Origin: Thermoanaerobacter kivui
GTDB lineage: Bacteria; Bacillota; Thermoanaerobacteria; Thermoanaerobacterales; Thermoanaerobacteraceae
Direction: 5' to 3'
DNA: 64,000 bases
Assembly: GCF_000763575.1 (NCBI RefSeq)
Contig: NZ_CP009170.1
Span: 2,257,501-2,321,500 of the forward strand
The position numbers were made by a program, and so were the translations under genes. The notes under the pieces were generated by a model, which saw nothing but the letters and a program-made list of their open reading frames with translations, made no database searches and was not told the DNA's origin. Within the stretch, counting starts at the first letter, position 1. Every line of letters starts with the position of its first letter. Positions 8,640-36,532 of the stretch are shown in pieces.

Positions 8640-8720
8640 CTTTTTCTCCCTCACTTTTTCTAAACTTCAAAAAAGAAAATTTTGTATAATTATCATCTAA
8701 CAGTTCTGCTTTTTACTATG

Positions 8721-8753
8721 TATAATTCTACATCAATTGCCAATTTCCTTCTT
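8721..8753 (-). promoter_or_regulatory. Conserved upstream element of the module A operon
   Basis: A 33-bp stretch 82 bp before the chosen cas10 start (67 bp before the alternative GTG) that is nearly repeated at 36499-36532, 58 bp upstream of cas6. On the minus strand both read AAGAAGGAAA, then a short variable part, then AATTRATGTAGAATTATA. One small gap and about four mismatches separate the copies. TAGAAT or TATACA could be the -10 box; no TTGACA-like -35 is visible at the right distance. The rest of the two upstream regions differs, so this is a kept element and not a duplication of the region. A shared activator or repressor site is the likely reading. Confidence 0.6.
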
Positions 8754-18094: not shown

Positions 18095-18136
18095 ATATTT
18101 TTCACCTCACTTTTATTACTATTTCATTAATCATAC

Positions 18137-18670
18137 CTATGCCCAGCAAAATTCGGCATAGGCACATTTGGAACAATAACGTCCTCTGTGAGGAGATGGA
18201 GGAAGTGGTTGGTTTATCAATTCTAAAATTTCCTGCTTTACCTTTTCTACTTTTCCTTCCCATTCTGGGGTTAAAATCAAAATCTCTTTTTTTCTCTCCT
18301 CTGGAAATAAAAGTTCTCCTTCAGCCTCTATCCCCATATTTTTTAATTCATAAAGATAAAAAGCTAACTGCATTCGTGCAGCCTCTATAGCTTTAGAAGT
18401 TTTCTTAACTTCAGCTATCACTAAAGTTTTTTCGCCCCTTTTAATCATATCTAAAGCCAAATGTTCTATGTGCACTTCTTTTCTTTCCCTACTATAGGCT
18501 TGTTTTTGAATTAATCTACCTATCTGTAAAAATATATTATCTTCGTCTGGACATACCTGTCGAGACATAAGCCATACCTGACGTGGACATATAAAAAAGG
18601 CCTGTACATAACTACCTATAACCTTAGATAGTTCTTCTTCCAAAGAAAATAAAGTACTCAATAGATCCAC
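18137..18670 (-). CDS. cas4: Cas4 nuclease, [4Fe-4S] type
   Basis: A 177-residue RecB-like nuclease that trims prespacers and selects the PAM side. Cys28 (FFICPRQVWL) and the C-terminal cysteines 166, 169 and 175 (YCSKCAYAEFCWA) form the iron-sulphur cluster site. V-I-A-E-V-K-K-T-S-K supplies the nuclease E-x-K motif. The start overlaps the end of cas3 by 13 bp. Confidence 0.95.
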   Translation of the reverse strand: MDLLSTLFSLEEELSKVIGSYVQAFFICPRQVWLMSRQVCPDEDNIFLQIGRLIQKQAYSRERKEVHIEHLALDMIKRGEKTLVIAEVKKTSKAIEAARMQLAFYLYELKNMGIEAEGELLFPEERKKEILILTPEWEGKVEKVKQEILELINQPLPPSPHRGRYCSKCAYAEFCWA

Positions 18671-21126: not shown

Positions 21127-21881
21127 AATTCCCCCTCCATAAAAGCTACATTTTCTTCCCCTGAAGGCAGAGAAAAACTATACGCATCAATTGAGAGTAT
21201 AGCTTTCCAAGGCTGCCCCTTGGTCTCATAGATATAACTTCTAGGGGGTAAAAGATTTCTGCCTTCAGAAAAAGCTTCAGGAGCTTTTTCTCTGTTTAAT
21301 GTAATCCCATTAGTTAAAAAGGGCTTTTTTAAAAAATCAACCGTTAAAACAGAATGGAGCATGACCTCTTCCCCTGCAGGGATTACTTTTGAAGGTTCAC
21401 CAAAATATACTAATTGAGTCTGAGCAATAAATTCTGTCAAACCCAGGTAAAGAGGAAAATACGGCTTATTCTGTTTTAGCCTTTTTGCAACTTCCTCTGT
21501 TATTCCTTCTTCTTTATGCCCAAAATAGATACGGTAATTTAGCATAGGAGCTCCTCCTCCGGGGAGGAGAAGCTCCAGAGGTACCTGGGTTCCTTTCATG
21601 AAACCTAATTTTTTCATCATATTTAGATCCTCTTCCTTAGTTCTAATATAATTTACTGTTTGAAAGAGACTTCGCACTGGAACTTTTATAACTACTCCAA
21701 ATCTCGCATTGTCGGGATTTAATTTTTCATAATAGCTATCCCTTTCCCACCCCAAAATAGCCGCTATTATCCCCATGAGCACTGTCCTTGGGGGAAAAGG
21801 ATAAGACAAAGAAGAAGTATTAGTATAATATTTGCGGAAATGGGCGAAAGGCCCCCGCAAATCAAATACAGCTATCTTCAT
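21081..21881 (-). CDS. cas5: Cas5, I-B Cascade subunit
   Basis: A RAMP-fold protein of 266 residues that binds the 5' handle of the crRNA in the I-B Cascade. It starts MKIAVFDLRGPFAHFRKYYT, typical of Cas5h, then has F-P-P-R-T-V-L-M-G-I-I-A-A-I-L-G, the glycine-containing helix of the family. It lies 16 bp after cas7. Confidence 0.94.
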   Translation of the reverse strand: MKIAVFDLRGPFAHFRKYYTNTSSLSYPFPPRTVLMGIIAAILGWERDSYYEKLNPDNARFGVVIKVPVRSLFQTVNYIRTKEEDLNMMKKLGFMKGTQVPLELLLPGGGAPMLNYRIYFGHKEEGITEEVAKRLKQNKPYFPLYLGLTEFIAQTQLVYFGEPSKVIPAGEEVMLHSVLTVDFLKKPFLTNGITLNREKAPEAFSEGRNLLPPRSYIYETKGQPWKAILSIDAYSFSLPSGEENVAFMEGELWFTMPTENKKPSIA

Positions 21882-21897
21882 ATCTTCTTCTCCCTTC

Positions 21898-22881
21898 TTA
21901 AACCAGAGATATTACTTTCGAAGATCCCAATATATTTTCCAACATCTCAGAAAATGTTTGTTCTTCTCCATTTACAAGTGTCATCAAATCTACATCTTGC
22001 CATACGAATACCCTGTTAATCTTTTCTTTCATACCTTCCAAATATCTTGTAATTCCTCCAATTTCTAATTTTACATCTTGAATAGAGCGCAATCCTTCCT
22101 CTTCAGAAAGTCGGAGATATTGTCTTAAATCTCCTATGAAGGTCTCATCATCTATATATTCAAATCGGACATAGAGGCGAGGATATTGCCCAATTTTGGA
22201 ACGAGTAGCCAATAAAGGAATGGCTTTAAGCATAGCTTGATCTAAAAGTTCTAAATCCTCATAAGTAGTAGCACCTAAGAGATTTTCTCCTGCCTTTTTG
22301 TACATTTCCCTTGCCCGGCGTGCACTGATAATCCCGTGGAAGGCAATCAAAGAATAATAAAGTCTATAATCCTTGCCAAAAGTGCCCTGACCAGCTTGCT
22401 GTCTGGAGGAAAATTGGGAAGAAATAGTATTAGATTCTACTAATTGAACTCTATTGAGAGAATATCCCCAGTTAAACTGTACTGGTCCAGTAAGAGTTAT
22501 CCCTTCTCCTTCTCCCTTTCGCTCACCTTTTATAGGCATGGTAGCTCCGAAAAGGCGCACATCAATTAGTTTTGTAAGTAAAATTGGCAGGTCAGCTCCA
22601 CTAACGTTATCTTTGCCTAAGATTCTTTTTATTCTATCTTCAGCTTGCCCTATGCCTTCAGCTTTGGTTACATAAATGGTTTGGTCCTCTCCCTTGGCTT
22701 GGAAATAATCATATAAATAGTCCCTTATATAGCGCTTAAGTCTTACATCAGAAACTAAATTACGCTCTCGTTCTAAGTCCATTCTTGGTCTGTTTTCGTC
22801 ATCGGGGTCACCATTGGGATTGCACATCTTTGCATCGTAAATGAACAATATTTCGCCGTTCTTATCAACAAGAGTTCTCAT
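21898..22881 (-). CDS. cas7: Cas7 (Csh2), I-B Cascade backbone
   Basis: A 327-residue backbone subunit that wraps the crRNA spacer. It begins with the Csh2 signature G-E-I-L-F-I-Y-D-A-K-M-C-N-P-N-G-D-P, then E-N-R-P-R-M-D. L-T-G-P-V-Q-F-N-W-G-Y-S near the middle is also characteristic. It lies 4 bp after cas8b, so the two are coupled. Confidence 0.96.
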   Translation of the reverse strand: MRTLVDKNGEILFIYDAKMCNPNGDPDDENRPRMDLERERNLVSDVRLKRYIRDYLYDYFQAKGEDQTIYVTKAEGIGQAEDRIKRILGKDNVSGADLPILLTKLIDVRLFGATMPIKGERKGEGEGITLTGPVQFNWGYSLNRVQLVESNTISSQFSSRQQAGQGTFGKDYRLYYSLIAFHGIISARRAREMYKKAGENLLGATTYEDLELLDQAMLKAIPLLATRSKIGQYPRLYVRFEYIDDETFIGDLRQYLRLSEEEGLRSIQDVKLEIGGITRYLEGMKEKINRVFVWQDVDLMTLVNGEEQTFSEMLENILGSSKVISLV

Positions 22882-22885
22882 ATAA

Positions 22886-24994
22886 TCATTCCTCCTCTTC
22901 TTTTTCTTCTAAATTTTCTTTTTTACCTGACATTCTGGAACCAAAAGCATACCCTGACAGTATATAAAAGACGTTTTCCTCAGATGTCAAAGGCCAATCT
23001 TTTTCACCGCGGTATTTGTCCATGAGCTTTTTCATCTCACTGTAAACCTGCTCATTGAAGCGAAGTTTATCATACTGTCTTAGTTTTTCAAAAATCAAGT
23101 TGGACAATTGCTGAACTTTTTTAAAGCTCATGCCTTGATAGTTGATTTTGTCTAAAATAGGTTTGCTCTTATGCCCTGAAGAGTATTGTCCCTTACCTAC
23201 TTCGCTTATGAGATAGCCCATCAAAAAGAGAGCAGCCTGAGGTTCACTGTATTTCATCTCTAATAAATAGTTTTTTATCTCTGGTTTCACTTCCAGCATT
23301 TCTGATACTTCCGTCAAGTTTTTCACCCCTTTTAATAATTTTTCTTCCTGTAAAAGTTTTATTAAAAATCCAGCTCTTAAAATTTCCTGACTTAAAATCC
23401 AATCCCTATTTTCTTGAGCAATTCTTCTCCTCTCTTGATTAGTACCAGCTAATGAATCTGTTAAATAGAGGCGTGCTAAAGTTACAAATTGAGTTACAAG
23501 AAAATCGTAATCTATAGGTTCTCTTTTAAGCAGTCCATGATAAAGGTAAAGTAACTTTTTGTGCTCTGTCTTATCACCCTCTCTCAAAGGTAGTAGATAA
23601 TAAAGTCGGGTAAGGTCCAACCACCAATCTCTGCAATCACCACCCAATAATTTAGCAGCCAGGTGAGAAAGCTGGTTACTCTTCTTAAAAAGCCCAAAGA
23701 GCCAGCTTGGGGCCACATCTTCAATTAAGCTTAAAACTCTAAATTCACTCTGGGTTTTTTGATAAAATAAGAAAGTTAAAAGAGCTTGATTCTCTATCCC
23801 TTCTTCTTCCATCTCATAAAGTACTCTTCTAAGTTCTTTTTCAAATTCTTTTTCATCCGCTATACTCCTCACCTGACCAGTAAAATCTACAATATTTTGT
23901 GTTTTCTTTCTTAACTTCCCTACTATATTAGAAAAATCCATCTTCCATCCTTCTAAATCATGAGTTAAAAGTAATGAAGGTAAAAGTAAGAAACTAAGAT
24001 TGCCTATTCTAAATCCCAAATTGCTGAGCATATATCTTTCAGCTACCAAAAGAGAATTAAAGCATTCCTCGCAAATGAGAAAATTGCGAGAAAAGCCTTT
24101 TTCATTTAATTCAGAAGCAAAACCAATTTTATCAGTTATATAAGGCTTAAAAAATTCAAGTCGCTTAAAAGCAGTAGGACTGACTCTGTCTTTCTTTTCT
24201 CCGCAAATCGAGCAATATCCTTCAATCACCTCCTTTTCAAATCCTTCTGTACGATATTCAATTATCACATCGTCATAGGGTGATAAATCTATTAAAGGTT
24301 TATTATTTAAAACTATTGTCCACAGGGCTATTTGCCTCTTTTTTACTCCAATTTTTTTAGCAATCTCTTCTGACAACTCTTGCGCTACTAATTTGGCTAA
24401 ATCTTTTTTCTTAATTAGCTCTTTAGCTTTTTTGATAATATCTTTAATTTCTTTTTGCGCCTTTTTATCAGTTTGCTCCTTCTGATATTGGTTTAATTGC
24501 TGTAAAAAATTGTCCAGTTCATTGAGGTTCTCTTTTAACTTATCATCTTTTAAAGGAAAACCAATTTTTCTAATATCAAATAAGCTTTCACCATTTGGTA
24601 GCACAACAAAATATCCTTTTAATATTTTATCTATTGAAAGAGCCAATTCCGAATGTTGTCTGCTGCGGCGTAAAAGTGTCTGATAAAGGTTAGAAAGCGT
24701 AGAACCCATAAGATAATTTAAATTGCTAACAGTAAGAAATATTTGAGGAATATTCCCTGAAGCATTACCTACAAAACGCCAGCGAAATAAAAAATCTTTT
24801 CTGGATTTGTACTCCTCTGGAATCTCTTCCAAATCAAAATTAAATTTTAATTCTTCACCTTCTTCAAAGAATTTAAGTTTAACTAAATATTGTTCCTCCT
24901 CCTGTTTAGGTGAACTCAAATCTTCTATAAGGTAGGAAAGCATTTCTTCATCAACGCCCAAGTTTTTGCCAATAAAAGTTACTGCCTCTAACAT
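22886..24994 (-). CDS. cas8b: Cas8b (Csh1), I-B Cascade large subunit
   Basis: A large protein of 702 residues in the position of Cas8b, which recognises the PAM and recruits Cas3. The middle holds a Cys4 zinc-finger-like set: Y-C-S-I-C-G-E-K and about 55 residues later I-C-E-E-C-F, typical of Csh1. Family conservation is low; the call rests on the finger, size and the gene order before cas7-cas5-cas3. The end is acidic (KEEE). It lies 2 bp after module B cmr6, so the I-B and III-B genes are joined in one transcription unit. Confidence 0.88.
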   Translation of the reverse strand: MLEAVTFIGKNLGVDEEMLSYLIEDLSSPKQEEEQYLVKLKFFEEGEELKFNFDLEEIPEEYKSRKDFLFRWRFVGNASGNIPQIFLTVSNLNYLMGSTLSNLYQTLLRRSRQHSELALSIDKILKGYFVVLPNGESLFDIRKIGFPLKDDKLKENLNELDNFLQQLNQYQKEQTDKKAQKEIKDIIKKAKELIKKKDLAKLVAQELSEEIAKKIGVKKRQIALWTIVLNNKPLIDLSPYDDVIIEYRTEGFEKEVIEGYCSICGEKKDRVSPTAFKRLEFFKPYITDKIGFASELNEKGFSRNFLICEECFNSLLVAERYMLSNLGFRIGNLSFLLLPSLLLTHDLEGWKMDFSNIVGKLRKKTQNIVDFTGQVRSIADEKEFEKELRRVLYEMEEEGIENQALLTFLFYQKTQSEFRVLSLIEDVAPSWLFGLFKKSNQLSHLAAKLLGGDCRDWWLDLTRLYYLLPLREGDKTEHKKLLYLYHGLLKREPIDYDFLVTQFVTLARLYLTDSLAGTNQERRRIAQENRDWILSQEILRAGFLIKLLQEEKLLKGVKNLTEVSEMLEVKPEIKNYLLEMKYSEPQAALFLMGYLISEVGKGQYSSGHKSKPILDKINYQGMSFKKVQQLSNLIFEKLRQYDKLRFNEQVYSEMKKLMDKYRGEKDWPLTSEENVFYILSGYAFGSRMSGKKENLEEKEEEE

Positions 24995-24996
24995 TT

Positions 24997-25863
24997 TTAT
25001 CCCTCTTTCTTTAATGATTGTGCCAATTTCCTCTGAGCCTCTTCGTGTGGTTCAAATCGACCATAGCCTACAGAAGTTTTAGCTCCGGCTCCAGCCCAGC
25101 TAAGAGCTTCTTTTATCCATTCCTGCAATTTAAATATATCTTCTTTTCCTTCTTTAATTCGAGGAGCTATGGCAAAAACAAAAGTTTGGTCTGAAGCTAC
25201 TGTTAAAAAAGGTATGGGCACAGGGTCATACCAATCTCCCGGCGCATACCAATCTCCCGGCGCTTTTTCGATTTTATTTTTCTCTTGCAAATAATAGGGG
25301 CTGTAATGGGGTGTCATTACATCAGCTTCTAATTTAATAGCTTTTATTGGTAACACATCAAAGAAAATGACGCTTCCTGCTTTATCGGATTTTCCCTTGC
25401 CTTTAGGTCCAAATATTTTCTCTATTTCTTTCGGATCTATCTCGCTCCATTCTTCTGCCCAAGAACGCACTAATCCTTTAAAAGAACTTCCCGGAAGATA
25501 AGGCACTCCCAAAGTATGATGCCATACAAAACCATTTTCTATGGGGTGTTTTCTCCCCAAGCCGGTAACAAACCGCCACTGGGTTTTGTAACACATATAA
25601 CTTCCTCCTAAAGTTGTTACAAGAGATAAAAGGCGAGTAAGAGCTTCTTGTATAAGTGATGGGTCGCCTATGTCACCACTAGTCACCGATTGAATCCATT
25701 CTTTTTTCCCATCTTTTTTCCCATCTTTTTTCCCATCTTTCGCTATAGTCCAATCTTTTTCCCACTGGTAGAAAAATTTATCATACCAGAGGCCAGCGTT
25801 AAAATTTTTTTGATATTTCTTCCACATTTCGATATTTTGAGCTTCTTGATAAAGAGGAATCAT
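24997..25863 (-). CDS. cmr6: Type III-B RAMP protein Cmr6 (module B)
   Basis: The Cmr6 of module B, 288 residues, with V-T-G-L-G-R-K-H-P-I-E-N-G, L-P-G-S-S-F-K-G-L-V-R and the C-terminal A-G-A-K-T-S-V-G-Y-G-R-F. Two small tandem repeats are seen: DGKK three times near residue 43, encoded by 12-bp units, and APGDWY twice near residue 210, encoded by an 18-bp direct repeat around 25226-25262. Module A has a single PGDW there. Both are in frame. The insert at PGDW is close to a conserved segment and may affect assembly. Confidence 0.92.
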   Translation of the reverse strand: MIPLYQEAQNIEMWKKYQKNFNAGLWYDKFFYQWEKDWTIAKDGKKDGKKDGKKEWIQSVTSGDIGDPSLIQEALTRLLSLVTTLGGSYMCYKTQWRFVTGLGRKHPIENGFVWHHTLGVPYLPGSSFKGLVRSWAEEWSEIDPKEIEKIFGPKGKGKSDKAGSVIFFDVLPIKAIKLEADVMTPHYSPYYLQEKNKIEKAPGDWYAPGDWYDPVPIPFLTVASDQTFVFAIAPRIKEGKEDIFKLQEWIKEALSWAGAGAKTSVGYGRFEPHEEAQRKLAQSLKKEG

Positions 25864-26288
25864 GATGTTTCCTCCTTCTCAACAACAGTCTCTTTCTTAA
25901 AAAAAGCCACAGCAAATTTTTTAAGCCACTCCAGGTAAGCTAAAGCTTCCATCTGGGCTTGAATATATGTCTCCCTGCTACTGTTGACAATGGCCTCCAT
26001 CAAATCTTCTGCATTGCGATAAGGAGCTTGGGAATGATCTCTGCAAAGCCAGCTCTGTATGGAATTGTATAGGACATAGTGGAGGTCTTCCTTATCACCT
26101 TTGGCCTGTGCTAAAAGAGTAGCCATGGCTTGTCCTAAGCCATTAGCTAAAATTGTTGCAGGCAAACTTTCTACATATGAAGCGTATTTATTCTTATTAT
26201 CAGAAGAGTACCTACCATTGTCGTTATTTATTTTTCTAATTTCGTTCAAGGCATGTTTAGCCCTTTCTTGAGCAATAGAGGGCCTCAT
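25860..26288 (-). CDS. cmr5: Type III-B small subunit Cmr5 (module B)
   Basis: A helical protein of 142 residues between cmr4 and cmr6. A-Q-E-R-A-K-H-A-L near the start and S-L-P-A-T-I-L-A-N-G-L-G-Q match Cmr5 helices and the module A copy. It overlaps cmr4 by 4 bp and cmr6 by 4 bp. Confidence 0.9.
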   Translation of the reverse strand: MRPSIAQERAKHALNEIRKINNDNGRYSSDNKNKYASYVESLPATILANGLGQAMATLLAQAKGDKEDLHYVLYNSIQSWLCRDHSQAPYRNAEDLMEAIVNSSRETYIQAQMEALAYLEWLKKFAVAFFKKETVVEKEETS

Positions 26289-27115
26289 CTGGATTCACCT
26301 CCAGAAAACCACTGTATCCTGCACCAACCCTGACCTATGGTTTCGTTTCCTCCCACTTGGAGATACGGACTATCTTTAAACAAAGACTCAACCTCATATA
26401 AGTCATTTTGATCCTCTGTAAGCTTTCTTTCAAAAATAAGAGAATAGAATAATGTATCAGGAGGAATTACTTCTTCATACCATAGGTTGTCACTGGTCTT
26501 GTTTTTATTCAGTACATTCCGGGCATTAACAGGTAGCCCGTACTGAGCGAAATATTGAAATTCTTTATCATCGATGATCACTAACTGAGTTTCTAGACGC
26601 TTTTTTACTGAATCATGTGGAATGAACTCTTTTAAAGTTTCTACTATTTTATTGAGATCTTTACCTTTGCTTGTGGAAAAAACTATTTCTTCCAGAAAGA
26701 GTTCTCCCATTTCTTCTTGAACTAAGGCTTTATCCCCGGGGTCAGGTATATCGAAATCCCAAGACAGCCCCATCAGCTCTCCATCTCTTTTTAGACGCTC
26801 TAAAATATAGGGACAAGTAACCCACTTAAAGGGGCCTGGTAGAGACCTCACAGGTAAAAGAAGAAGACGAGCATCGGTTATAAGCAAAGATCCCGCTTGG
26901 TTTGATTCGCCAAAAATCCGCTTTAATTTTTCTTCTTTTTCTCCCCATACCTGCTCTGCCTTATCTCTCAAAGCACCTTTTAAGCTAGAACCCACTATAA
27001 CTGGATAACCTGTGGTTTTTTCCCGAGCTACAGGTAAGTCCACTGCTCCTACCACTTGTCCCACCCCAGGGTGCAAACTGGTCTCTGCAAAAAGAGATAA
27101 AATACTACCCTTCAT
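26285..27115 (-). CDS. cmr4: Type III-B backbone nuclease Cmr4 (module B)
   Basis: Cmr4 backbone and target-RNA nuclease, 276 residues from the ATG at 27115, which has a GGGAGGAG site and overlaps the cmr3 stop as ATGA. An in-frame ATG at 27130 is less likely. Asp26 in G-A-V-D-L-P-V-A-R-E corresponds to the catalytic aspartate of the family. S-S-L-K-G-A-L-R-D and L-Q-V-G-G-N-E-T-I-G-Q-G are further signatures. It is intact, even though the cas10 of this module is broken. Confidence 0.94.
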   Translation of the reverse strand: MKGSILSLFAETSLHPGVGQVVGAVDLPVAREKTTGYPVIVGSSLKGALRDKAEQVWGEKEEKLKRIFGESNQAGSLLITDARLLLLPVRSLPGPFKWVTCPYILERLKRDGELMGLSWDFDIPDPGDKALVQEEMGELFLEEIVFSTSKGKDLNKIVETLKEFIPHDSVKKRLETQLVIIDDKEFQYFAQYGLPVNARNVLNKNKTSDNLWYEEVIPPDTLFYSLIFERKLTEDQNDLYEVESLFKDSPYLQVGGNETIGQGWCRIQWFSGGESR

Positions 27116-28212
27116 TTTATCTCCTCCCATCTACCTATAATTATCTGGTTAAAACCATAATCTCCTCTCGGTTCCAAGCATTGCCCGTGAAGTTTACTCA
27201 ACTTTTCTTTTATATCCTCTCTATTTTCCGCTTCATAAAACCATAGGCTGCCAGGAGGAAGAACAGGCACTAAAGGTCTGGGTTCCTGTTTTTTTAAGTC
27301 CCAACCTCCCACATAGAGGCATTTCCCTATGCACGCCGATACCATTGTGCCGGGAATTCCAGGAGGACCTTGAAGTATAGCTGTATCTAACGGCTCGAAC
27401 CATCCAGGTGTAAGAAGTAAAGCAAAAAATCGCAATTTCCCATCTTTGTCAGGATAAATTTTCGGAAATGATGGTAAAACCTCTTCAGGAAAACCTGTAG
27501 CTACTTCAACTCTAGCCAGGCGCCCTTCTCCACCTAGAGGTATTGCTTTGATGCCAGAAGTATCCCAATCATCAGGAATGCCCCCTACATATATGGCCAA
27601 AGATGTTTCTTTTTGAGGTCTTACATGAACTACATAGTAAAGATGACCCTCCTTGGCGGTGCGGGTTTTATCGGACCGCTCCAAACCTATACGGGGTTCA
27701 TTGAAATATACCTTGTCCCTGGGCAATATATCTTCCTCATTGGGAAGGCCGCCTTGTATCACCTCCTGAAGACCTTCTCGAGATATATACTCCCCTTCTA
27801 TTACCTTATACCCTTCTCCACCTTCATCTGCTATAACAGGAAGGCGAACTTCCCCTAAATCGCAACGAACCTTGGAACCGGGCACTAATCTTAAAAAATC
27901 CTTGCCTTTTTTCAGAAGTAAAAGAGGTGCAGGAAAATAAGGCTTATTTTTGTACAAGAGATAAGGACCCTTAAACTGAATTTTGCCTAAATTATCTGAA
28001 TCGCCCAGTTCTTTAGGCCATAAATTAGGCTTTTCAGGAGACCACCCTCTCTTTATGGCTAAACTATATCTTACTGCCCCCTGTAGAGTGGTTATAAAGG
28101 GTGGAAAAAGGCTCTGTACGCTACTGTATCCTCCTTCGCCCGCATGAAATGAGACTCCGCCTCGGAAAAAGAAAGTGTCCAAAGCTTCAAAGGACCACTT
28201 GCTCCAGTTCAT
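27112..28212 (-). CDS. cmr3: Type III-B RAMP protein Cmr3 (module B)
   Basis: Cmr3 of module B, 366 residues, starting MNWSKWSFEALDTFFFRGG with F-P-P-F-I-T-T-L-Q-G-A-V-R shortly after, as in the family. A late G-I-P-G-T-M-V-S segment is also typical. It overlaps the preceding cas10 fragment by 4 bp and cmr4 by 4 bp. Confidence 0.92.
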   Translation of the reverse strand: MNWSKWSFEALDTFFFRGGVSFHAGEGGYSSVQSLFPPFITTLQGAVRYSLAIKRGWSPEKPNLWPKELGDSDNLGKIQFKGPYLLYKNKPYFPAPLLLLKKGKDFLRLVPGSKVRCDLGEVRLPVIADEGGEGYKVIEGEYISREGLQEVIQGGLPNEEDILPRDKVYFNEPRIGLERSDKTRTAKEGHLYYVVHVRPQKETSLAIYVGGIPDDWDTSGIKAIPLGGEGRLARVEVATGFPEEVLPSFPKIYPDKDGKLRFFALLLTPGWFEPLDTAILQGPPGIPGTMVSACIGKCLYVGGWDLKKQEPRPLVPVLPPGSLWFYEAENREDIKEKLSKLHGQCLEPRGDYGFNQIIIGRWEEIK

Positions 28213-28928
28213 GCCTCCACCCCCTTCTGGCTTAGAAATTTCACCAGCATAAGGCCATCGGTTTGAAAACTGGCTTTGTCTACATCCATCAAGTACCCCT
28301 TCCCATCTTCCTTTCCTTTTCTTTTAACCCTCTGGCAAAGCTTTAAAATATGCTTTGCTTTTTCTCTTGCTGTAGGCCAGTCCACTTGACGCTCCCTATT
28401 TTTCCTGTATTCTGCAGCCAAAAGGTCTACTAAATACTCTTCAGATATCCATTGTTCCGGTAGCTTCCCCTCCTGAGAAAACAAAGGTTCTATTCTCTCC
28501 CGCAAATTGTAAAAGAAAGTAAAATTGTATTCTTTAGGCTTGTCTCCTTCGGACAAAGCATTTAAAAACTCATCAAAGATATTGCCGTTATGGGTTTTGA
28601 TGAACTCCCAAGGAGCAGACCAAGTTAAAACTCGCCCCGATCCTTTCCAAACAGTTATAGCTAAGCTATCTCTTCCAGTTTCATCTTTAGCTACTCTATC
28701 CAGTAGGTCATGAGCTTCCTTTATAACTCCGGTTAATGGAACATTGTAGTGGGCATATACTAAAGCTGCCGAAATAGTGCCTTCACCATCTTCCTCCAAA
28801 ACTTCGTAATCATTTCCAAAGGTTTCTCTAAAAGCATTGACGTATGTTTCCCGCAACTTAAGAGCCAGAGATAGCGCTTTTTCCAGAGAAACCATTGCTA
28901 AGACGTCATCTCCTCCAGCATAAACCAA
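28209..28928 (-). pseudogene. cmr2: C-terminal fragment of module B Cas10/Cmr2
   Basis: The 3' part of cas10-B after the IS insertion. It begins just before V-Y-A-G-G-D-D-V-L-A, the cyclase motif, and continues through the D4 region to the normal end. A TTG at 28928 could start translation but has no clear ribosome site. Together with 30502-31737 and minus one copy of the 19-bp target duplication, the original gene would encode about 645 residues. Separated from the N-terminal half, it is unlikely to be active unless the two pieces associate. Confidence 0.92.
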
Positions 28929-28946
28929 AACTCCATTATGGAGTTG
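28928..28946. repeat. Target site duplication, left copy
   Basis: AAACTCCATTATGGAGTTG, a 19-bp direct repeat of 30513-30531. It includes the perfect palindrome ACTCCATTATGGAGT, so the element went into a palindrome within the cas10 coding sequence. Confidence 0.9.
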
Positions 28947-30512
28947 CAGACTGTTGACAAAATATCGGGAACCCGTTATGATGAGAAGGGTTCCTTGTTT
29001 TTTTAACGGTACAAAGCAAAAGAGGAGAGGAGAAGAAAGATGTTATCAAAGAAACAGGATGCCAGACATCAAATAGAATTTGTAAGCATAGATCAGTTAG
29101 TTCCAAAAGATCACCTTTTAAGGAAGATAGAAAGAGTTATAGATTTTAGTTTCATATATGATTTAGTAAAAGAGAAATATTCCGAAGATCACGGCAGACC
29201 AAGCATAGACCCAGTAGTACTCATAAAAATACTTTTCATTCAATATCTTTTTGGTATACCATCGATGAGGAGGACAATAGCAGAAATAAAAACAAATGTA
29301 GCGTATAGATGGTTTTTAGGGTATGGGCTGACAGAAGAAATACCTCATTTTTCAACATTTAGTCAGAACTACATAAGAAGATTCAAGGGGACGGATATAT
29401 TTGAAAAAATATTTACGAAAATTTTAGAAGAAGCAATAAAACATGGGCTAGTAAATGCAGAGGAAGTATTCATAGATTCAACCCATGTAAAAGCAAGTGC
29501 CAACAAGAAGAAATACACCAAAGAAATAGTAGAAAAAGAAGCCAGGACTTATCAAGAAAAACTAGAAGAAGAAATAAACAAGGATAGAGAGGCTCATGGC
29601 AAAAAGCCATTAAAGAAAATCAAGAAGATAAAGACGAAAGAAGTGAAAGTAAGCAAAACAGACCCGGATAGCGGAATGTTAAACAAAAACGGAAAAGAAA
29701 AAATCTTTGCATATTCTTTTCACACAGCCTGCGATAAAAACGGATTTGTATTAGGAGTAAAAGTTGAAGCTGCAAATGTACACGACAGTGTGATGTTTCA
29801 AGAAGTATTAGAAGAAGTTGAAAAGAGGGTAAGAAAACCGAAAGCAATAGCAGTAGACGCAGGCTATAAAAATCCGTACATATTAAAGACAATATTTGAT
29901 AGACAAATAATACCATCAGTGCCGTATACAAGGCCAAAAACAAAAGATGGTTTCATGAAAAAACATGAATTTGTTTATGATGAATACTATGACTGTTACA
30001 TATGCCCGCAGAATGAAATATTAACATATGTTACAACCAACAGAGAAGGATATAGAGAATACAAATCAAACCCAGAAAAATGTAAAAACTGTCCTCTAAG
30101 AGAAAAGTGTACCCAAAGTAAAGACTACACAAAGAGGATATTCAGGCACATATGGGAAGGATATGTAGAAGAAGCAGAACACCTAAGGCATACACCTTAC
30201 TGTAAAGAAGTATATGAGAGAAGGAAAGAGACAATAGAGAGAGTATTTGCAGATTTAAAGGAGAAGCATGGTTTGCGATGGACGACGTTAAGAGGGAAGG
30301 AAAAATTGTCCATGCAAGCGATGCTTGTTTTTGCTGCCATGAATTTAAAGAAAATGGCCTTATGGTTATGGAGGAAGGGCAAAGGGCCCTTTGACATTTC
30401 AAAACTTTATTCATTATTTGGAGTTTTAAAGAAAATTTTATCCAGATATATACAGCCCCTGCTTTCGGTACTAAGAAAACAGGGGCTAAAATTTTGCTTT
30501 GTCAACAAACTG
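28947..30512 (+). mobile_element. IS1182-like insertion sequence in cas10-B
   Basis: An element of 1566 bp with terminal inverted repeats: the left end reads CAGACTGTTGACAAAAT and the right end, reversed, CAGTTTGTTGACAAAGC. It has 19-bp flanking duplications and one transposase gene on the plus strand, opposite to the cas operon. The left end carries a stem GGAACCC/GGGTTCC (28969-28994) followed by TTGTTTTTTT, probably a terminator that blocks read-in from outside. The insertion is recent in appearance, since the duplications are identical and the transposase is open. Confidence 0.92.
28968..29004 (+). terminator. Intrinsic terminator at the IS left end
   Basis: GGGAACCC (28968-28975) and GGGTTCC (28988-28994) form a stem, followed by TTG and seven T. 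It lies upstream of the transposase start, the usual place for IS elements to stop impinging transcripts. Confidence 0.75.
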
Positions 30513-30554
30513 AAACTCCATTATGGAGTTGTACCACATCTTTTACGTTTTTAG
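29040..30554 (+). CDS. IS1182-family transposase
   Basis: A DDE transposase of 504 residues. The N-terminal DUF772 part shows V-P-K-D-H-L-L-R-K-I and G-R-P-S-I-D-P-V-V-L-I-K; the catalytic region shows F-I-D-S-T-H-V-K-A near residue 143 (first Asp), A-V-D-A-G-Y-K-N near 280, and E-R-V-F-A-D-L-K-E-K-H-G-L near 400 (Glu). A Cys cluster (YICPQN, CKNCPLREKC) is typical. It is preceded by GGAGAGGAG. The frame has no stop inside the element and runs 14 codons past the right end at 30512 into cas10 antisense sequence, stopping at 30554. Confidence 0.93.
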   Translation: MLSKKQDARHQIEFVSIDQLVPKDHLLRKIERVIDFSFIYDLVKEKYSEDHGRPSIDPVVLIKILFIQYLFGIPSMRRTIAEIKTNVAYRWFLGYGLTEEIPHFSTFSQNYIRRFKGTDIFEKIFTKILEEAIKHGLVNAEEVFIDSTHVKASANKKKYTKEIVEKEARTYQEKLEEEINKDREAHGKKPLKKIKKIKTKEVKVSKTDPDSGMLNKNGKEKIFAYSFHTACDKNGFVLGVKVEAANVHDSVMFQEVLEEVEKRVRKPKAIAVDAGYKNPYILKTIFDRQIIPSVPYTRPKTKDGFMKKHEFVYDEYYDCYICPQNEILTYVTTNREGYREYKSNPEKCKNCPLREKCTQSKDYTKRIFRHIWEGYVEEAEHLRHTPYCKEVYERRKETIERVFADLKEKHGLRWTTLRGKEKLSMQAMLVFAAMNLKKMALWLWRKGKGPFDISKLYSLFGVLKKILSRYIQPLLSVLRKQGLKFCFVNKLKLHYGVVPHLLRF

Positions 30555-31737
30555 AAAAACTATTCAAGGCAGAACTAATCTTTTTGGCATTGTACCTCCG
30601 CAAAAGAGCACCCATTCTATCTCCATCCATCAAAAGAAGAGCATAGAAGGAAGAAGGCTTTTCTCCTACCTTGTCCGTAAGCTCCTTTAAAGCTTTTTGA
30701 CATTTTTCTCTCTCATCTTTGGGATCTTTCCCACCTTCTTGCACCCAGAGATTGGGATTACTCAAAGCAGCTTGGTGAAAACAATTGCCATTCAGAGAGA
30801 GAAATTCTCTCGTCTGGGCATCGCGGTTTGCGATTTCTCTCAGCGAAGGGAAAAGCTCTAAATCTTCCTTGTGTGTAGCTCCAGGAAGAAAAGAAGCACA
30901 TTCTGCATATTGTCTCACTATTTCTGGAAGATTTTTTGCTGCCTTTATTATCCACGGCAAAGCTGACAAATACGGAGTAGAAGGATAATTTTTCTGCTCA
31001 GGATCCCATCCTATGGCTTCACGAGCTACCAAAGGAAAAAGCCTTTTGATTAACCCTATAGCAGAAAGTCTCTCCCTTTCATCCAGCTCGTACCCGCCTA
31101 CTTGTTTTCTTAAAGATTCCCAAAAAGCATCCTGTTTTTCTCTTTCTTTTATGCGCAAATACCCTGAAAGTTCCTGAAAATGTCCCATCAGGGTGCATTT
31201 ATCACCAGGTTCAGGAAGCAAAATGCGAATTCGCCAGTTTTTCCTGCGATCTAAAAGGTTTACCTGTCCTTCCTCCCCTAAAACCCACATTATTTCCCAG
31301 AAATTTTCCACTTGGCGCTTCCAAATTTCCTCAGTGTTGTTCCCGTCCTTGGCTACAGGCTGAACAAACTTATCCCAAACAGCCTGAGCTATTTTTAGCC
31401 AACCATTTTTTACAGCCTCCACACATTTCTGCGGGTCAAAATCTTCCGGAACCTTTGCCATGAAACGATTGGGCAAAGTGGCAATGCTAGGACCTTTTTT
31501 GACTTTCTCCCCCTCCCTTATCTCGGCAATGGTTTTCAAGAGAGCATCTACCCTTTCTCCCCGGTAATCCACCGCCGGGAACACCATCTCTCCGCCATTC
31601 ATCAAAACCTCAGAAATGGCCAAACCAGAAAGATACGAGAGAAGAAAAGACCCAACCCAGAAGTCCCTGGTTCTTCTCGCTTGGGCCACGAATTCCTGAA
31701 CGGGACCTATAGAGAAATGTAAACTCACTTTACTCAT
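30502..31737 (-). pseudogene. cmr2: N-terminal fragment of module B Cas10/Cmr2 (HD-less)
   Basis: The 5' part of cas10-B, which starts MSKVSLHFSIGPVQEFVAQA, that is directly at the family signature. The HD nuclease domain seen in module A is absent, and this is not caused by the insertion, since the start overlaps cmr1 by 8 bp as expected. L-L-M-D-G-D-R-M-G near residue 375 is the first Palm motif. The frame then passes the insertion point (V-Q-L-H-N-G) and stops in the IS end. The cyclase GGDD is on the other side of the IS. Confidence 0.92.
30513..30531. repeat. Target site duplication, right copy
   Basis: Identical to 28928-28946; marks the right border of the insertion sequence. Confidence 0.9.
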
Positions 31738-32866
31738 TTGGCCACACCACCTTGGCTCCTAAAGTTGGGCGCTTCAGGAAATCAGAAATTACGTCGTAAT
31801 TTACCTGCACGGGGACAATCTTTGATTGCCCACCCCTCTTGATTTCTACCCTTACATTCTGAGGTAAAAACTGAGATGGAATTAAACTAAGTACTCCTAC
31901 ATAATTACCATCAGCTAATTTATGAATATGAATAAACAAAGGGCTCGCTCTTCTCTTTTGTCCTTTTGAATCTGGTTCTATAGAAACTTTACCTTTGCCG
32001 CTAAAAAAGTAATTATGAGGCAAACCAAAAACTACTCGCCGTGGAATCCTGTTAATTCTCTTCCCATTCAAGAAATCAAGCATCAAGTCGTGGTCATCAG
32101 CAAAAATTTGCTCTGCTTTCTCCCCCCAAGGCAATACATGCTTATCTTTTGAAGCTCGTCCATAACTTCGATATCTCAACAACTCCATTCCAACCTCATT
32201 TAAGAGTGCAAGAGGATCTTTATCTCCTTTTTTTACAAATATTCGAGTTTTACTACTAAAAGCCGTGTATGGAGGTAAGGTGTCGTCTCTACTTACTTTG
32301 TTTAGAAATCCTCTAAGGAGGTTTTTTAATTCTTTTACATTACGAGGCTCATTCCACTCTTCATTATTTTCTACTCGCAGAGAAACCAAAGAAAGAGAAC
32401 CAAAACCTCTCCTGGACCTGGCTCCTGCTCCGCCAAAAAGCCCCAGAGCCTGTAAAGATTGTTTCAAAAATTTTAATTCTTCTTCTGATACAGATTTTTT
32501 TAAGAATAAACTGAGAGTAAAACTCCTGCCGTTTTCAATATATGGCCTAATTCCTTTTTCTGTCAAACCATACCCTAAGTAATTTAATCCATAAGTATAT
32601 TTATTGAAAATCTGTTTTTTATTAGGCATAAGCGTATTGTCATCAATTTTTATAAGAAACTTAGCTTGCCCCTCAGTACTGCCAAAAATACTATTTTCTA
32701 CCTCAAAAACTTCTTTTAGAGAACCCAGCTGGGGCCAGGCAACAGCTCGGAACCAAAATCGCAAGAGCCCTTTCAGGCTGGAAGGCCTAAGCTCTGTATT
32801 AGTTCCATTATCAGCCCCACCCATGAACATAGGTGTGCTTATATGATATGTAGCTTCAATTCGCAC
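31730..32866 (-). CDS. cmr1: Type III-B RAMP protein Cmr1 (module B)
   Basis: Cmr1 of module B, 378 residues from the GTG at 32866, which has a GGGGGGTGG site; a TTG at 32890 is open upstream without a good site. E-L-R-P-S-S-L-K-G-L-L-R-F-W-F-R is the diagnostic segment, followed by S-I-F-G-S-T-E-G. G-L-F-G-G-A-G-A-R-S-R-R-G-F-G-S is the RAMP glycine loop. First cmr gene after the accessory block, with about 110 bp of AT-rich sequence before it. Confidence 0.93.
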   Translation of the reverse strand: MRIEATYHISTPMFMGGADNGTNTELRPSSLKGLLRFWFRAVAWPQLGSLKEVFEVENSIFGSTEGQAKFLIKIDDNTLMPNKKQIFNKYTYGLNYLGYGLTEKGIRPYIENGRSFTLSLFLKKSVSEEELKFLKQSLQALGLFGGAGARSRRGFGSLSLVSLRVENNEEWNEPRNVKELKNLLRGFLNKVSRDDTLPPYTAFSSKTRIFVKKGDKDPLALLNEVGMELLRYRSYGRASKDKHVLPWGEKAEQIFADDHDLMLDFLNGKRINRIPRRVVFGLPHNYFFSGKGKVSIEPDSKGQKRRASPLFIHIHKLADGNYVGVLSLIPSQFLPQNVRVEIKRGGQSKIVPVQVNYDVISDFLKRPTLGAKVVWPNE

Positions 32867-32977
32867 TTTCCCACCCCCCTTTTTTGCCAATCTTAAAAAT
32901 AAATTTACCTTCGCTTTCTCGCCTTTACTTTATTGTCTGTATTTGCTAAAACAAATTTTTACTTTTTAGTTTTTTCC

Positions 32978-34255
32978 CTAATCTAAAAGTTTTTCCAACA
33001 TTGAATAAATTTCTTTTAATTGTTTTTCAATGCTGGTTGGTATTTCTTGAGCGCCCTTTGTTTTACCGCAGTGGGCAATGCTATTCCGTAGATCTCTGAT
33101 TTGTCCCCACAGTTTAACTAATTTTTCGCTCTCAGCCAATTGCTCAAACCATTCTGGTACTAAAGCTTCCTCCCCTTTTTTCTTTTTCAAACTACTGTTT
33201 AGGGCTAGCTCTATTGTATTCGTCCTGTAATCCCTATCCAACCATTCTTCTTTCAGATTTTTGTAAGCTACAAAATCCACTATCCATTCTCTAGTTAATA
33301 AAATTCCCTCTGTGTATCGTCCCTTATCTATATAATGTCGAATAATCGCTAATTGGCGTCGTAGATTCTCCCCAGTTAATTTCTGTGAATCGCATTCATA
33401 AGCCAATTCCTTTATTTCCCTTTTTACCTCGTCTAAAACCACCCCAAAGGGTTTAGCCCAAGTCTTTACTTCACCTGAAGCCTGTTCAAACAAAGGCAAT
33501 AATTCTTGAGAAAATTCCATAACTTTTAAAGGGCGGAGTAACTGCAAAGCTTGAGATACCCTTTTGAGCCCTTCTCCTAATTTCTTTAATTTAGTCGGTT
33601 TTTCTCCTGGCTGCTCTTCCTTCCAAATTTTATTCTGGGTTTCGGCTATCCGTTCCGCCAAAAAAGCGGCATCACTTCTTTGTCGCAAAAATTCTACTCC
33701 AATCATCCAATCAAACAAATCTATCAATTTTGTTAAGTCAAAGATAGGAACTATATCTTCCTCTCTTGCTTCATATGCACCGTACAAAATAGCTTTAATT
33801 TTTGCTCCTTTGACCCTTTCTAAATAGACAGCTGCCGTAAATACTATTAAAGGCAAAGATCGAAAGGCATGAGTAATATCCAGAATCACTTCGTCCCCTT
33901 TTTCTACAACTTGAGTACATATATCAAAGATTTCCCAAAGTTCCCCTTCTGATTTTCCCTCAGGAATTTCTCTTTCCTTTAATTTAACTTTATCTTTTAG
34001 ACGTTTTTGTAAAGTTTCCCAATAAGTCTCTTCTTCCAAAGGTTCTGGAAGTCCTTGGTTGCATTCGGGGCACTGCTCTCTTTTGGGAGGTCTATAATTT
34101 TTAGCCGATGGAGTCAGTAAAATTATAACCTCCTCAGGTTGAAAAATTTCAGCAACCGCTTCCGGAAAAAGATGGGTCCTAGCTTGCTTATCTTCCCAGA
34201 CATAAATAACTTCTTTATATTGTCCTTTGCCTAGAAAACTTATTGCTTTTTTCAT
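32978..34255 (-). CDS. csx2: CARF-HEPN ancillary protein, DxTHG/TM1812 (Csx2) family
   Basis: A 425-residue protein expected to be a ribonuclease switched on by cyclic oligoadenylate. The N-terminal CARF part has the TM1812-type opening (MKKAISFLGKGQYKEV) and the family motif D-I-T-H-A-F-R near residue 125, with Ala in place of the usual Gly of DxTHG. A C-P-E-C pair near residue 62 is unusual. The C-terminal HEPN part contains R-D-L-R-N-S-I-A-H near 390, whose R-x4-H can form the RNase site. It is intact, unlike Csx1 in module A. It lies 31 bp after the csx15-like gene. Family is well supported; activity is inferred. Confidence 0.88.
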   Translation of the reverse strand: MKKAISFLGKGQYKEVIYVWEDKQARTHLFPEAVAEIFQPEEVIILLTPSAKNYRPPKREQCPECNQGLPEPLEEETYWETLQKRLKDKVKLKEREIPEGKSEGELWEIFDICTQVVEKGDEVILDITHAFRSLPLIVFTAAVYLERVKGAKIKAILYGAYEAREEDIVPIFDLTKLIDLFDWMIGVEFLRQRSDAAFLAERIAETQNKIWKEEQPGEKPTKLKKLGEGLKRVSQALQLLRPLKVMEFSQELLPLFEQASGEVKTWAKPFGVVLDEVKREIKELAYECDSQKLTGENLRRQLAIIRHYIDKGRYTEGILLTREWIVDFVAYKNLKEEWLDRDYRTNTIELALNSSLKKKKGEEALVPEWFEQLAESEKLVKLWGQIRDLRNSIAHCGKTKGAQEIPTSIEKQLKEIYSMLEKLLD

Positions 34256-34286: not shown

Positions 34287-34673
34287 TTAACTTCCTCTTC
34301 TTTTCCTCGCCTCCTCCCTCACTTGGTGTAGGTTAATAATCTCTGCTACTTCAAACTGGAGGGGAAGGCTTCCTTCTATTGGTCGAAGACGCAATACAGG
34401 AGGAAAATAGCCACACCTTCCGTGTACTTCTGCTAAAAGAGTTACTGCGCTTATGCTGAGAGATGGCGGATTTAGTATAAAAGGTACTGTTTGCCATTCA
34501 TGTGGCGTAAACCCTACTCTATCTACCAACTCAACAATTTGAGGAATTAAGGACTTCTGTTGGTCTATGTAAGCATCTATCTCTACAACGCGTTCTATTT
34601 TTTGCCCCAATTTTTCTTCTAGTTTTTGAATTTGGTTCTCTGTTAGAGGATGTGAGAAATTTATGAGAAACAT
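34287..34673 (-). CDS. csx15: Small CRISPR accessory protein Csx15
   Basis: A 128-residue protein starting MFLINFSHPLTENQIQKLEE, which I recognise as the Csx15 type found beside type III CARF genes. A conserved middle reads G-F-T-P-H-E-W-Q-T-V-P-F-I-L-N-P-P-S-L-S, then L-A-E-V-H-G-R-C-G-Y-F-P and L-R-L-R-P-I-E-G. The family is thought to bind or degrade cyclic oligoadenylate and so tune the type III response; I cannot derive that from sequence alone. It lies between the CARF-HTH gene and the CARF-HEPN gene, a position that fits a control role. Confidence 0.75.
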   Translation of the reverse strand: MFLINFSHPLTENQIQKLEEKLGQKIERVVEIDAYIDQQKSLIPQIVELVDRVGFTPHEWQTVPFILNPPSLSISAVTLLAEVHGRCGYFPPVLRLRPIEGSLPLQFEVAEIINLHQVREEARKRRGS

Positions 34674-34695: not shown

Positions 34696-35592
34696 TTATT
34701 CTTCTAGATCTTTTAAGGCAAAATAGGGTGCAAATTCTGCAATGAGAAGATTGCGGTCTACTTTCATAGAAGGATAATCCTTCCACTCCTTTAATTTTTC
34801 ATAAATGACTTGCAATTGATTAGCTATAGTCTGCTCTTTTTTATGAAGAATCTTAGATATAGATGCATTGTCGTAACCTTTACATACAAGCTCAACAATC
34901 TCTCTTTCTGCTAGAGTAAGCCAATGATTTAAAAATTCCTTTTTTCTCTTAAACTCCGCTTTTTTAGTCAATTTTCTATACCAAATCTCAACTTCACTAG
35001 GGTCCCCTATCTCCGCTACTGTGCGCATTAAAGTAGAAGCTTCTGACCAACGTATTACAGGTATTTGCACTAACCAGACTTTTTCCTCACTTGAAAGATG
35101 AAGTTTGCGTTCATTCCCCGGTTCCCAACCTTCTGTAATAAGATACCATAAACGATCTTCATCCCCAAATAAAAGCTGAGCTACAAGCATTCCTACCACA
35201 CCCATTATTTTCCGCCCACCTGAAATAAGAAAATGGATTGTGAAATCATTTTGCTTAAGTTCTCGAATCTCTTTATAAATAGTGCTTAGCAAAGCCTTTA
35301 CACTTTCTTCTGTGAGAAAATCCTCTATCACCCCATCACGGGAATAACCCTTTACAGGTACTTTAACAAATTCCATCTTATAGAATTCCTTTAAAAACTC
35401 ATCGTCTAAAATTCTTAGTGCATCAAGTACTTTGGAGCTTTTGGTATATATCACAATTACCTTGCTAAGTGGATACCCTCTTTTTAGCAACTCATCTAAA
35501 GCAATAGTGACTACCTGTGGTTCACTTCCTAAAGTTGCTATTAAAACTTCTTTTCGTTTTTTTAGCCTTTCCTTTTTGTTTGGATTTTTCAT
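34696..35592 (-). CDS. CARF (NE0113-type) protein fused to a LuxR-type HTH
   Basis: A putative cyclic-nucleotide-sensing transcription factor. The ATG at 35592 (298 residues) is preceded by GAGGGCGGA; a TTG at 35643 is also open. Residues about 13-200 form a CARF domain of the NE0113 family: V-L-I-A-T-L-G-S-E-P-Q-V-V-T, then F-L-I-S-G-G-R-K-I-M-G, the motif usually written GGRKTM. Residues about 225-272 read as a GerE/LuxR HTH (LTLAEREIVELVCKGY, then ASISKILHKKEQTIANQLQVI). Known CARF-HTH proteins such as Csa3 use a winged HTH, so this combination is less usual. It is the second gene after cas6 and may control this operon and the module A operon. Confidence 0.85.
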   Translation of the reverse strand: MKNPNKKERLKKRKEVLIATLGSEPQVVTIALDELLKRGYPLSKVIVIYTKSSKVLDALRILDDEFLKEFYKMEFVKVPVKGYSRDGVIEDFLTEESVKALLSTIYKEIRELKQNDFTIHFLISGGRKIMGVVGMLVAQLLFGDEDRLWYLITEGWEPGNERKLHLSSEEKVWLVQIPVIRWSEASTLMRTVAEIGDPSEVEIWYRKLTKKAEFKRKKEFLNHWLTLAEREIVELVCKGYDNASISKILHKKEQTIANQLQVIYEKLKEWKDYPSMKVDRNLLIAEFAPYFALKDLEE

Positions 35593-35685
35593 GATAATTC
35601 CGCCCTCTTCCACCTTGTCAATTATTTTATCCAAATTGCTCAAATTTTTCTATGTAATGTGTTACTATTTTAAATAGTAATTCCT

Positions 35686-36441
35686 TCACCCTATTATCTC
35701 AAAACACCCAAACCCTTGTGAATTTTTGGCACCCAAACCTGTGTAGTAGGCAAGTTCCAGAAGTTCAGGAGTAGTCTCAACATCATATATCCCCATCCAT
35801 CCTTTTACATAAACATTTTTATATTTGATCATCTTTGAATATCTTCTGTCTTCTTTTTCCAATAAGGGATAAAGCTTAAAATATGGATCTTTCGCTTTTA
35901 CTTTATGGACTAATTCATATTTTTTAAGGAGATTGTTAAGTAAAAGGAGAGAAAATTTGTCATCCCATGGAGAATAATAATAAGTGTATTTTATGTCTCC
36001 ATTCCTAAGAGTAGTGTACATAACAACAGGAGAAATAAATTTTATCCTTGCTTTATTTTTAAAAACAGGAGGATTGTCTATATTGAGTGAATTCAAAATA
36101 AATTTTTGACCATTAAAATGGCAATACTCCTTTTTTAACGCATTTTTTGAAATATCAAATATAAATTCATCTAAAGGAGAGGCAACAGTAAATTTAAAAG
36201 GAGGTTTTATGCTTATTTTTTTCTGCCCTTTGGAATCTGTTAAAATCTTGAACTCCCCTTCAATTCTTGAAAAAGTAAATAATTTAAATTTTCTTTTTTC
36301 ATATTGAAACCCTTCATCATGTAAAAAAGCTGCAAACTCACTGTCCCCCATGAGGTCATACAAAAAGCCTTGAACTATATAATTATAATGAATTGGCAAT
36401 ACTAAATTTTTTTCTCCCACAAATTCCAAAGTAATTCTCAT
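35686..36441 (-). CDS. cas6: Cas6 pre-crRNA endoribonuclease
   Basis: A 251-residue double-ferredoxin protein that cuts the pre-crRNA in the repeats, leaving the ATTGAAAC handle. The N-terminus M-R-I-T-L-E-F and H-Y-N-Y-I-V-Q-G-F-L-Y, with a candidate catalytic His in the latter, match the family, and the C-terminus has the glycine-rich loop G-L-G-A-K-N-S-Q-G-F-G-C. It is the only cas6 in the window and first in the operon, so it probably serves I-B and both III-B modules. It is preceded by GAGGTG and by the conserved element at 36499. Confidence 0.94.
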   Translation of the reverse strand: MRITLEFVGEKNLVLPIHYNYIVQGFLYDLMGDSEFAAFLHDEGFQYEKRKFKLFTFSRIEGEFKILTDSKGQKKISIKPPFKFTVASPLDEFIFDISKNALKKEYCHFNGQKFILNSLNIDNPPVFKNKARIKFISPVVMYTTLRNGDIKYTYYYSPWDDKFSLLLLNNLLKKYELVHKVKAKDPYFKLYPLLEKEDRRYSKMIKYKNVYVKGWMGIYDVETTPELLELAYYTGLGAKNSQGFGCFEIIG

Positions 36442-36498: not shown

Positions 36499-36532
36499 TA
36501 TAATTCTACATTAATTCTCATTTTTCCTTCTT
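36499..36532 (-). promoter_or_regulatory. Conserved upstream element of the cas6 operon
   Basis: A 34-bp copy of the element at 8721-8753: on the minus strand AAGAAGGAAA, a short variable part, then AATTAATGTAGAATTATA. It lies 58 bp before the cas6 start, against 82 bp (67 from the GTG) at cas10-A. No standard -35 box is seen, which suggests an activated promoter. Confidence 0.6.

Follow-up and report, generated by a model that had tools for sequence, protein, structure and literature searches.

The stretch of DNA that we analysed, a window of 64,000 nt from Thermoanaerobacter kivui (NZ_CP009170.1; all coordinates are window positions), carries behind cas6 a gene whose product joins a CARF domain to a helix-turn-helix (HTH). 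This raises the question of whether a type III CRISPR system can pass its cyclic oligoadenylate (cOA) signal on to transcription, and to which genes. We consider it probable that the fusion protein is a ligand-controlled transcription factor, with a cOA-sensing CARF domain and LuxR/NarL-class HTHs that act at CRISPR-Cas promoters, probably as an activator. According to this model, the CARF domain, dimeric by analogy, would sense the cOA that Cas10 produces, most probably cA4, and the bound ligand would set the DNA binding of the paired HTHs at TRGTA/TACYA half-sites. In Bacillota these sites precede the type III operon of the protein itself and often, too, the type I-B operon, cas4-cas1, csx15 or cmr1 of the same genome. 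Type III detection of viral RNA would in this way control how strongly several CRISPR arms are expressed.

The gene and its two domains are placed as follows:

34696..35592, minus strand: CARF-LuxR HTH protein (Csx14-type CARF plus GerE/LuxR HTH), an open reading frame of 298 aa
35044..35553, minus strand: CARF domain, residues 14-183, from Pfam NE0113 and fold comparison
34699..34980, minus strand: LuxR/NarL-class DNA-binding domain, residues 205-298 (core HTH 225-268), from the GerE match, PDB profile matches and a model of the HTH alone

The gene is single-copy in the genome and starts with an ATG at 35592; an in-frame TTG at 35643 would give a longer reading frame. The first-pass annotation had recognized an NE0113-type CARF domain by its SGGRKIMG motif, and the profiles agree with it. 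Pfam Cas_NE0113 (PF09623) covers residues 24-210 (E 1.8e-65; 221.1 bits vs a cut-off of 23), the N-terminus matches the NCBIfam model for Csx14 (TIGR03642; 151.6 vs 90.35 bits), and the motif lies at residues 124-131, with GGRK at 125-128. A single PADLOC profile labelled plain CARF spans residues 14-294 with 407 bits. The GerE/LuxR match at residues 225-268 is barely past its Pfam cut-off (25.0 vs 23.5 bits). It should nevertheless not be dismissed as chance, because a profile built from 23 homologues (A1) and searched against PDB chains matches solved LuxR-class HTHs at residues 221-266 (DegU, NarL, VpsT, GerE and VraR; E 9e-5 to 2e-3), and because comparison of the isolated HTH fold leads to the same class. 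In the full-length AlphaFold2 model (mean pLDDT 87), most of the HTH reaches 96-98. Modelled alone (pLDDT 87), the HTH is all helical and has no wing strands. The top Foldseek matches of this smaller model are VraR, EL222, VpsT, DegU, LiaR, NarL and DosR, with E-values that are weak, as is usual at such a small size, and fold comparison gave Z-scores of 11.1 to EL222, 10.5 to FixJ and 9.6 to NarL on DNA, with VpsT within 9.6-11. On the grounds of the PDB profile matches, the isolated model and these Z-scores, the C-terminal domain is of the tetrahelical LuxR class and not a winged HTH of the Csa3 type. Structure prediction and profile comparison, which had been suggested as a check, thus uphold both the presence of a LuxR-type HTH joined to the CARF domain and its difference from the HTH of Csa3.

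The CARF domain raises a different possibility. Its nearest solved folds are Cad1-CARF, Sis0455 and Sso2081 (Z 18-19), and profile A1 matches the ring nuclease Sso2081 over residues 15-136 (E 1.3e-10). The Crn1 enzymes Sso2081 and Sis0455 show 25-26% identity to the fusion CARF and have the GGRK motif II in common with it, the G-R-K of Crn1 being present at residues 125-128; among homologues, GGRK is invariant in alignment A1 and nearly invariant in alignment A2. A 2025 survey places Csx14 among the ring nucleases of the Crn1 group (PMC12409355), and auto-inhibition by a winged HTH has been described (PMC10018336) and proposed for Sso1393/Sis0811. The protein might therefore be mainly a ring nuclease of the Crn1 type, in which the HTH serves dimerisation or auto-inhibition rather than the switching of genes. 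We find this unlikely. Motif I, tied as G-T-S to cA4 cleavage in ring nucleases (PMC10018336), reads G-S-E in the window and mostly G-V-E in homologues, and the HTH is strongly conserved and accompanied by a DNA motif of the matching class at its own and at other cas promoters (see below). The score of the fusion against the Crn1 model NF040581 is 20.8 bits, below the cut-off of 125, and with 298 aa and a C-terminal LuxR-class HTH the fusion exceeds the 250 aa that the survey of ring nucleases set as its limit (PMC12409355). Ring nuclease activity of the fusion CARF is uncertain. Since proven cA4 ring nucleases have a different motif I, the ligand could also be another nucleotide, although for a transcription factor of this kind we infer it to be cOA.

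The combination of domains is widespread. A Csx14-type match is found in 26 of 398 Bacillota genomes and the full-length fusion in 21; within Bacillota the architecture is kept at about 50-57% identity, and it recurs in other phyla. A profile search of genome contigs gave 80 loci, in Bacillota, Chloroflexota, Pseudothermotoga, Armatimonadota, Rhodothermus, Caldatribacterium, Latescibacterota, Poribacteria and others. Conservation among the homologues extends to the HTH, including a TVANQL segment. When the same fusion was sought at other type III loci, as had been suggested, 36 of the 45 fusion loci that have at least 6 kb of downstream sequence were seen to carry a co-directional cas10 there, and GGDD is kept in 47 of 48 full-length Cas10s downstream of fusion genes. 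The homologue in R. marinus is the first gene of a csm operon. A presence/absence search with the PADLOC profile was of no use, as it matched every genome through ordinary LuxR HTHs.

In the window, the fusion gene stands among the following genes:

35686..36441, minus strand: cas6, upstream of the fusion gene (Pfam and NCBIfam Cas6)
34287..34673, minus strand: csx15, the gene after the fusion (NF040560, 1.5e-50)
32978..34255, minus strand: csx1 (CARF2-HEPN), from profile matches
24997..32890, minus strand: III-B genes cmr1, cas10 (split), cmr3, cmr4, cmr5 and cmr6
17102..24994, minus strand: type I-B and adaptation genes cas8b, cas7, cas5, cas3, cas4 and cas1
5925..8654, minus strand: intact Cas10 of a second III-B locus, with GGDD (from the translated reading frame, the motif being read directly)

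The window's cas8b was named by NCBIfam, and cas7, cas5, cas3, cas4 and cas1 by sequence resemblance and as search seeds. The type I-B and adaptation genes are continuous and co-directional with the III-B genes, and a single run extends from the fusion gene to cas1. The neighbours are as first described, with cas6, csx15 and a CARF2-HEPN Csx1 recognized by Pfam, NCBIfam and PADLOC. The gene, at first placed at the head of the cas operon, is the second gene, behind cas6, and has a predicted promoter of its own. The neighbouring III-B cas10 is interrupted by a transposase-bearing insertion of ∼1.57 kb, at about 28947-30512. Because this local cas10 is split, the cOA signal would have to come from the Cas10 of the other III-B locus, which is the likely source in this strain. 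Caldanaerobacter locus L091 keeps cas10 intact, and the flanks of the window's insertion overlap there by up to 19 bp, a possible target duplication.

The first-pass annotation had placed the binding site of the protein in an element shared by the two III-B operons. The element exists in both places:

36503..36529, minus strand: sigma-H-type promoter ahead of cas6 (element noted earlier at 36499-36532)
8725..8750, minus strand: sigma-H-type promoter ahead of the second III-B operon (element noted earlier at 8721-8753)

Its core, TRTATAATTCTACATYAATT, occurs exactly only twice in 2.4 Mb, both times at the head of a III-B operon, and the next best copy has 3 mismatches. The longer pattern AAGAAGGAAANTG..TGTAGAAT, allowing up to 3 mismatches, is by comparison common: several copies were found in each of 20 of 20 genomes of the family, of which only two have the fusion, and a reversed control gave 0. 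Within the T. kivui genome, further copies stand ahead of genes that we take from their sequences to be spo0A and minC, among others. The form AGGA-N17-GAAT is that of sigma-H promoters, following the B. subtilis consensus. Sigma-H is known to transcribe spo0A in C. difficile and B. subtilis (PMC3485338). Judging from this form, both III-B operons appear to be driven by sigma-H. An element of sigma-H form that has further copies upstream of spo0A, minC and other genes, and that is present even in genomes lacking the fusion, is probably not the operator of the fusion protein; that the protein acts through it, as its confinement in exact form to the two III-B operons had suggested, is in our view very unlikely. 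Starts of the sigma-H type would tie type III CRISPR expression to the stationary-phase transition or to sporulation. Two other readings of the element were discarded. One took a TGTA-N6/8-TACA palindrome in it for an operator, but the spacing varies between copies and the element is of sigma-H type; the other took it to encode a conserved leader peptide (M-x-I-x-V-E), but differences between the window and L091 mostly change amino acids.

A better candidate operator was found ahead of the fusion genes. Among 77 de-duplicated upstream regions, the 5-bp dyad TAGTA-N6-TACTA occurs in 10, and shuffled sequences gave at most 2-3 for any 5-bp dyad. The aligned sites read TRGTA-N6-TACYA-N7-TRGTA, a candidate operator of 28 bp. 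A search of 1.1 Mb of loci with this pattern, allowing up to 1 mismatch, gave 28 matches, every one of them on the operon strand, and 0 in the reversed control; about 20 of the 28 precede the fusion gene, in Bacillota loci, and the others precede csx15, cas4-cas1 or reading frames in the cas8b position. The TACY core resembles the heptamer of NarL, TACYYMT (PMC4886647), and the fusion would thereby have both the HTH fold and the TACY-type half-site of NarL, VraR, EL222 and VpsT, with a CARF domain as its sensor in place of a receiver, LOV or autoinducer domain; VpsT likewise couples a cyclic nucleotide to a LuxR-class HTH. We infer that the protein binds the TRGTA/TACYA motif. Upstream of Chloroflexota and other distant homologues, the dyad search found nothing above shuffles and no common dyad.

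The motif stands in a fixed register to predicted promoters. The best sigma-A -35/-10 pair begins exactly 10 bp past the motif at 26 of 34 sites, and at a distance of 9-11 bp at 32 of 34, a register that none of 300 shuffles reproduced; most of these promoters have a 17-bp spacer, and their -35 boxes are weak. A site at a fixed distance upstream of a weak -35 box has activator-type geometry, in which the regulator sits directly upstream of RNA polymerase. Conservation resembling AAGAT on the 3' side of the motif had been considered as a ribosome-binding site only, a reading that was abandoned when the paired -35/-10 test gave the fixed register. In L071, L076, L088 and L189, whose motifs come closest to the start codon, the predicted -10 box falls partly within the ribosome-binding region, and the transcripts would then be leaderless or have very short leaders.

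In the window, the corresponding site lies between cas6 and the fusion gene:

35662..35680, minus strand: candidate operator, a 19-bp palindrome TTACTATTT-A-AAATAGTAA (TTACTATTTAAAATAGTAA), one exact copy in the genome
35647..35652, minus strand: predicted weak -35 box TAGAAA, 10 bp past the last half-site
35624..35629, minus strand: predicted -10 box TAAAAT, after a 17-bp spacer

Its half-sites are TACTA (35679-35675) and TAGTA (35667-35663), and the first TRGTA half-site of its relatives is missing. With a matrix trained without the window, the palindrome region ranks first in the 64 kb; its score of 14 compares with a training range of 19.6-39.9, and one of 8 shuffled windows matched it, reaching 15. 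Because the genes from the fusion to cas1 form a single co-directional run, this one site could serve them all.

The same domains, motif and linkage would also be expected of a repressor that occupies the TRGTA/TACYA sites and is released from DNA by cOA, so that infection derepresses the cas operons. Regulation of the own promoter is moreover common among repressors. We hold such a mechanism possible, if on balance doubtful, as the motif keeps the same distance upstream of weak -35 boxes and does not cover the -10 box or the start site. Because the site is 10 bp upstream of weak -35 boxes, we lean towards activation as the main effect of the fusion protein.

The predicted targets extend beyond the protein's own operon. 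Across 22 whole genomes with the fusion there are 37 sites with up to 1 mismatch, 24 of which, as read from their positions, lie in CRISPR-cas clusters. The genes downstream of sites were identified by NCBIfam as Cas8b (TM1802/Csh1; four sites tested), Cmr1, Cas4 and Csx15, and two large reading frames in a similar position matched no NCBIfam family. A matrix trained on fusion-gene promoters alone, when run upstream of cas8b, scored at least 23.5 in 5 of 11 genomes with the fusion. A sixth site (L195, L261) came from the pattern search, as the longest-ORF rule had misplaced the cas8b of L261. The count is thus 6 of 11, leaving out the unconfirmed reading frame of L182, vs 0 of 27 genomes without the fusion, in which no score exceeded 10.8. 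In the remaining five fusion genomes another gene may precede cas8b in its operon. Of the proposed feedback loop between target detection and cas expression, the link to cas expression gains from this conserved motif at cas promoters, and the sites ahead of type I-B and adaptation genes extend the loop beyond III-B.

It is conceivable that a different, co-occurring regulator binds the motif and that the fusion protein has its own sites elsewhere. Genomes carrying the fusion have many other LuxR-class proteins, and one such protein, in a genome without it (G011), is encoded between two exact sites. Against this, the motif is commonest at the promoter of the fusion gene itself, it is absent ahead of cas8b in the 27 genomes without the fusion, and no further DNA-binding regulator was found among ten neighbouring reading frames tested at four loci; we therefore judge another binder to be improbable. 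The TRGTA/TACYA half-site may also serve other LuxR-class regulators. Exact sites in fusion-negative genomes were also considered as a CRISPR signal and rejected, as none is near cas genes. The two sites in G011 (L212; 3968-3995 and 5731-5758) are identical and flank their LuxR-type HTH gene far from cas.

The fusion is strictly accompanied by csx15, which is present in 21 of 21 genomes with an intact fusion vs 34 of all 398 (Fisher 2e-26); it is missing from two genomes whose fusion gene is truncated or split. This co-occurrence suggests that the fusion protein and Csx15 are a functional pair, and it gives Csx15 a strict genetic partner. In L078 and L089 the candidate motif directly precedes csx15.

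Among known systems, archaeal Csa3 likewise joins a CARF sensor to a DNA-binding domain, and its CRISPR-associated palindrome (CAPPa) likewise stands just upstream of the core promoter, 12 bp upstream of BRE/TATA (PMC8699464). According to a 2022 review, no CARF transcription regulator other than Csa3 had been characterised experimentally (PMC9704534), and even the binding of Csa3 to the palindrome was not specific in vitro (PMC8699464). Csa3 has a winged HTH and the palindrome TCCC-N8-GGGA, whereas the bacterial fusion has a LuxR/NarL HTH and TRGTA/TACYA; its CARF domain is nearer to Crn1 and Cad1 than to that of Csa3, and it scores 25.5 bits against the Csa3 model TIGR01884, below the cut-off of 60.2. 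By analogy, the best reading is that the fusion works like Csa3 with a different DNA-binding domain. By sequence it is a member of Csx14/NE0113 (TIGR03642, PF09623; PADLOC CARF3--CARF), past the curated cut-offs, but these models cover the CARF part or label the whole protein simply CARF. Transcription regulation by NE0113-type CARF proteins was predicted in 2014 (Makarova; PMC4012209). In the openly accessible papers searched we found no published CARF-LuxR regulator, and no LuxR-type output, operator or regulon described for Csx14/NE0113. What appears to be new is the LuxR-type HTH output, the candidate operator, the promoter register and a predicted regulon in which type I-B and adaptation genes are linked to type III. 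The fusion would represent a bacterial CARF family with a distinct DNA-binding domain, a defined candidate site and predicted targets that join type III detection to I-B interference and spacer acquisition, and the route from a type III alarm to the other parts of CRISPR becomes a directly testable question.

With this in mind, one may speculate further, and only tentatively, that the CARF-LuxR protein reads cOA, turns on a CRISPR-wide regulon (III, I-B, cas4-cas1 and csx15), limits its own signal through cleavage in its CARF domain or through its partner Csx15, and arose apart from archaeal Csa3. If this were true, it would constitute a self-timed immune switch.

The surroundings of the fusion vary. 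At some homologue loci, Card1-like or APE2256 CARF effectors replace the HEPN protein Csx1. In the window, the second III-B locus has a CARF-HEPN-like protein in two overlapping frames (4599-5928, minus strand; CARF 5062-5928, helical part 4599-5153), and this broken gene may be frameshifted. A CRISPR array lies between the two III-B loci, at about 10603-16299, with ∼85 repeats containing TTTCAATCCCTCTTAGGTAGGCTAAAAA.
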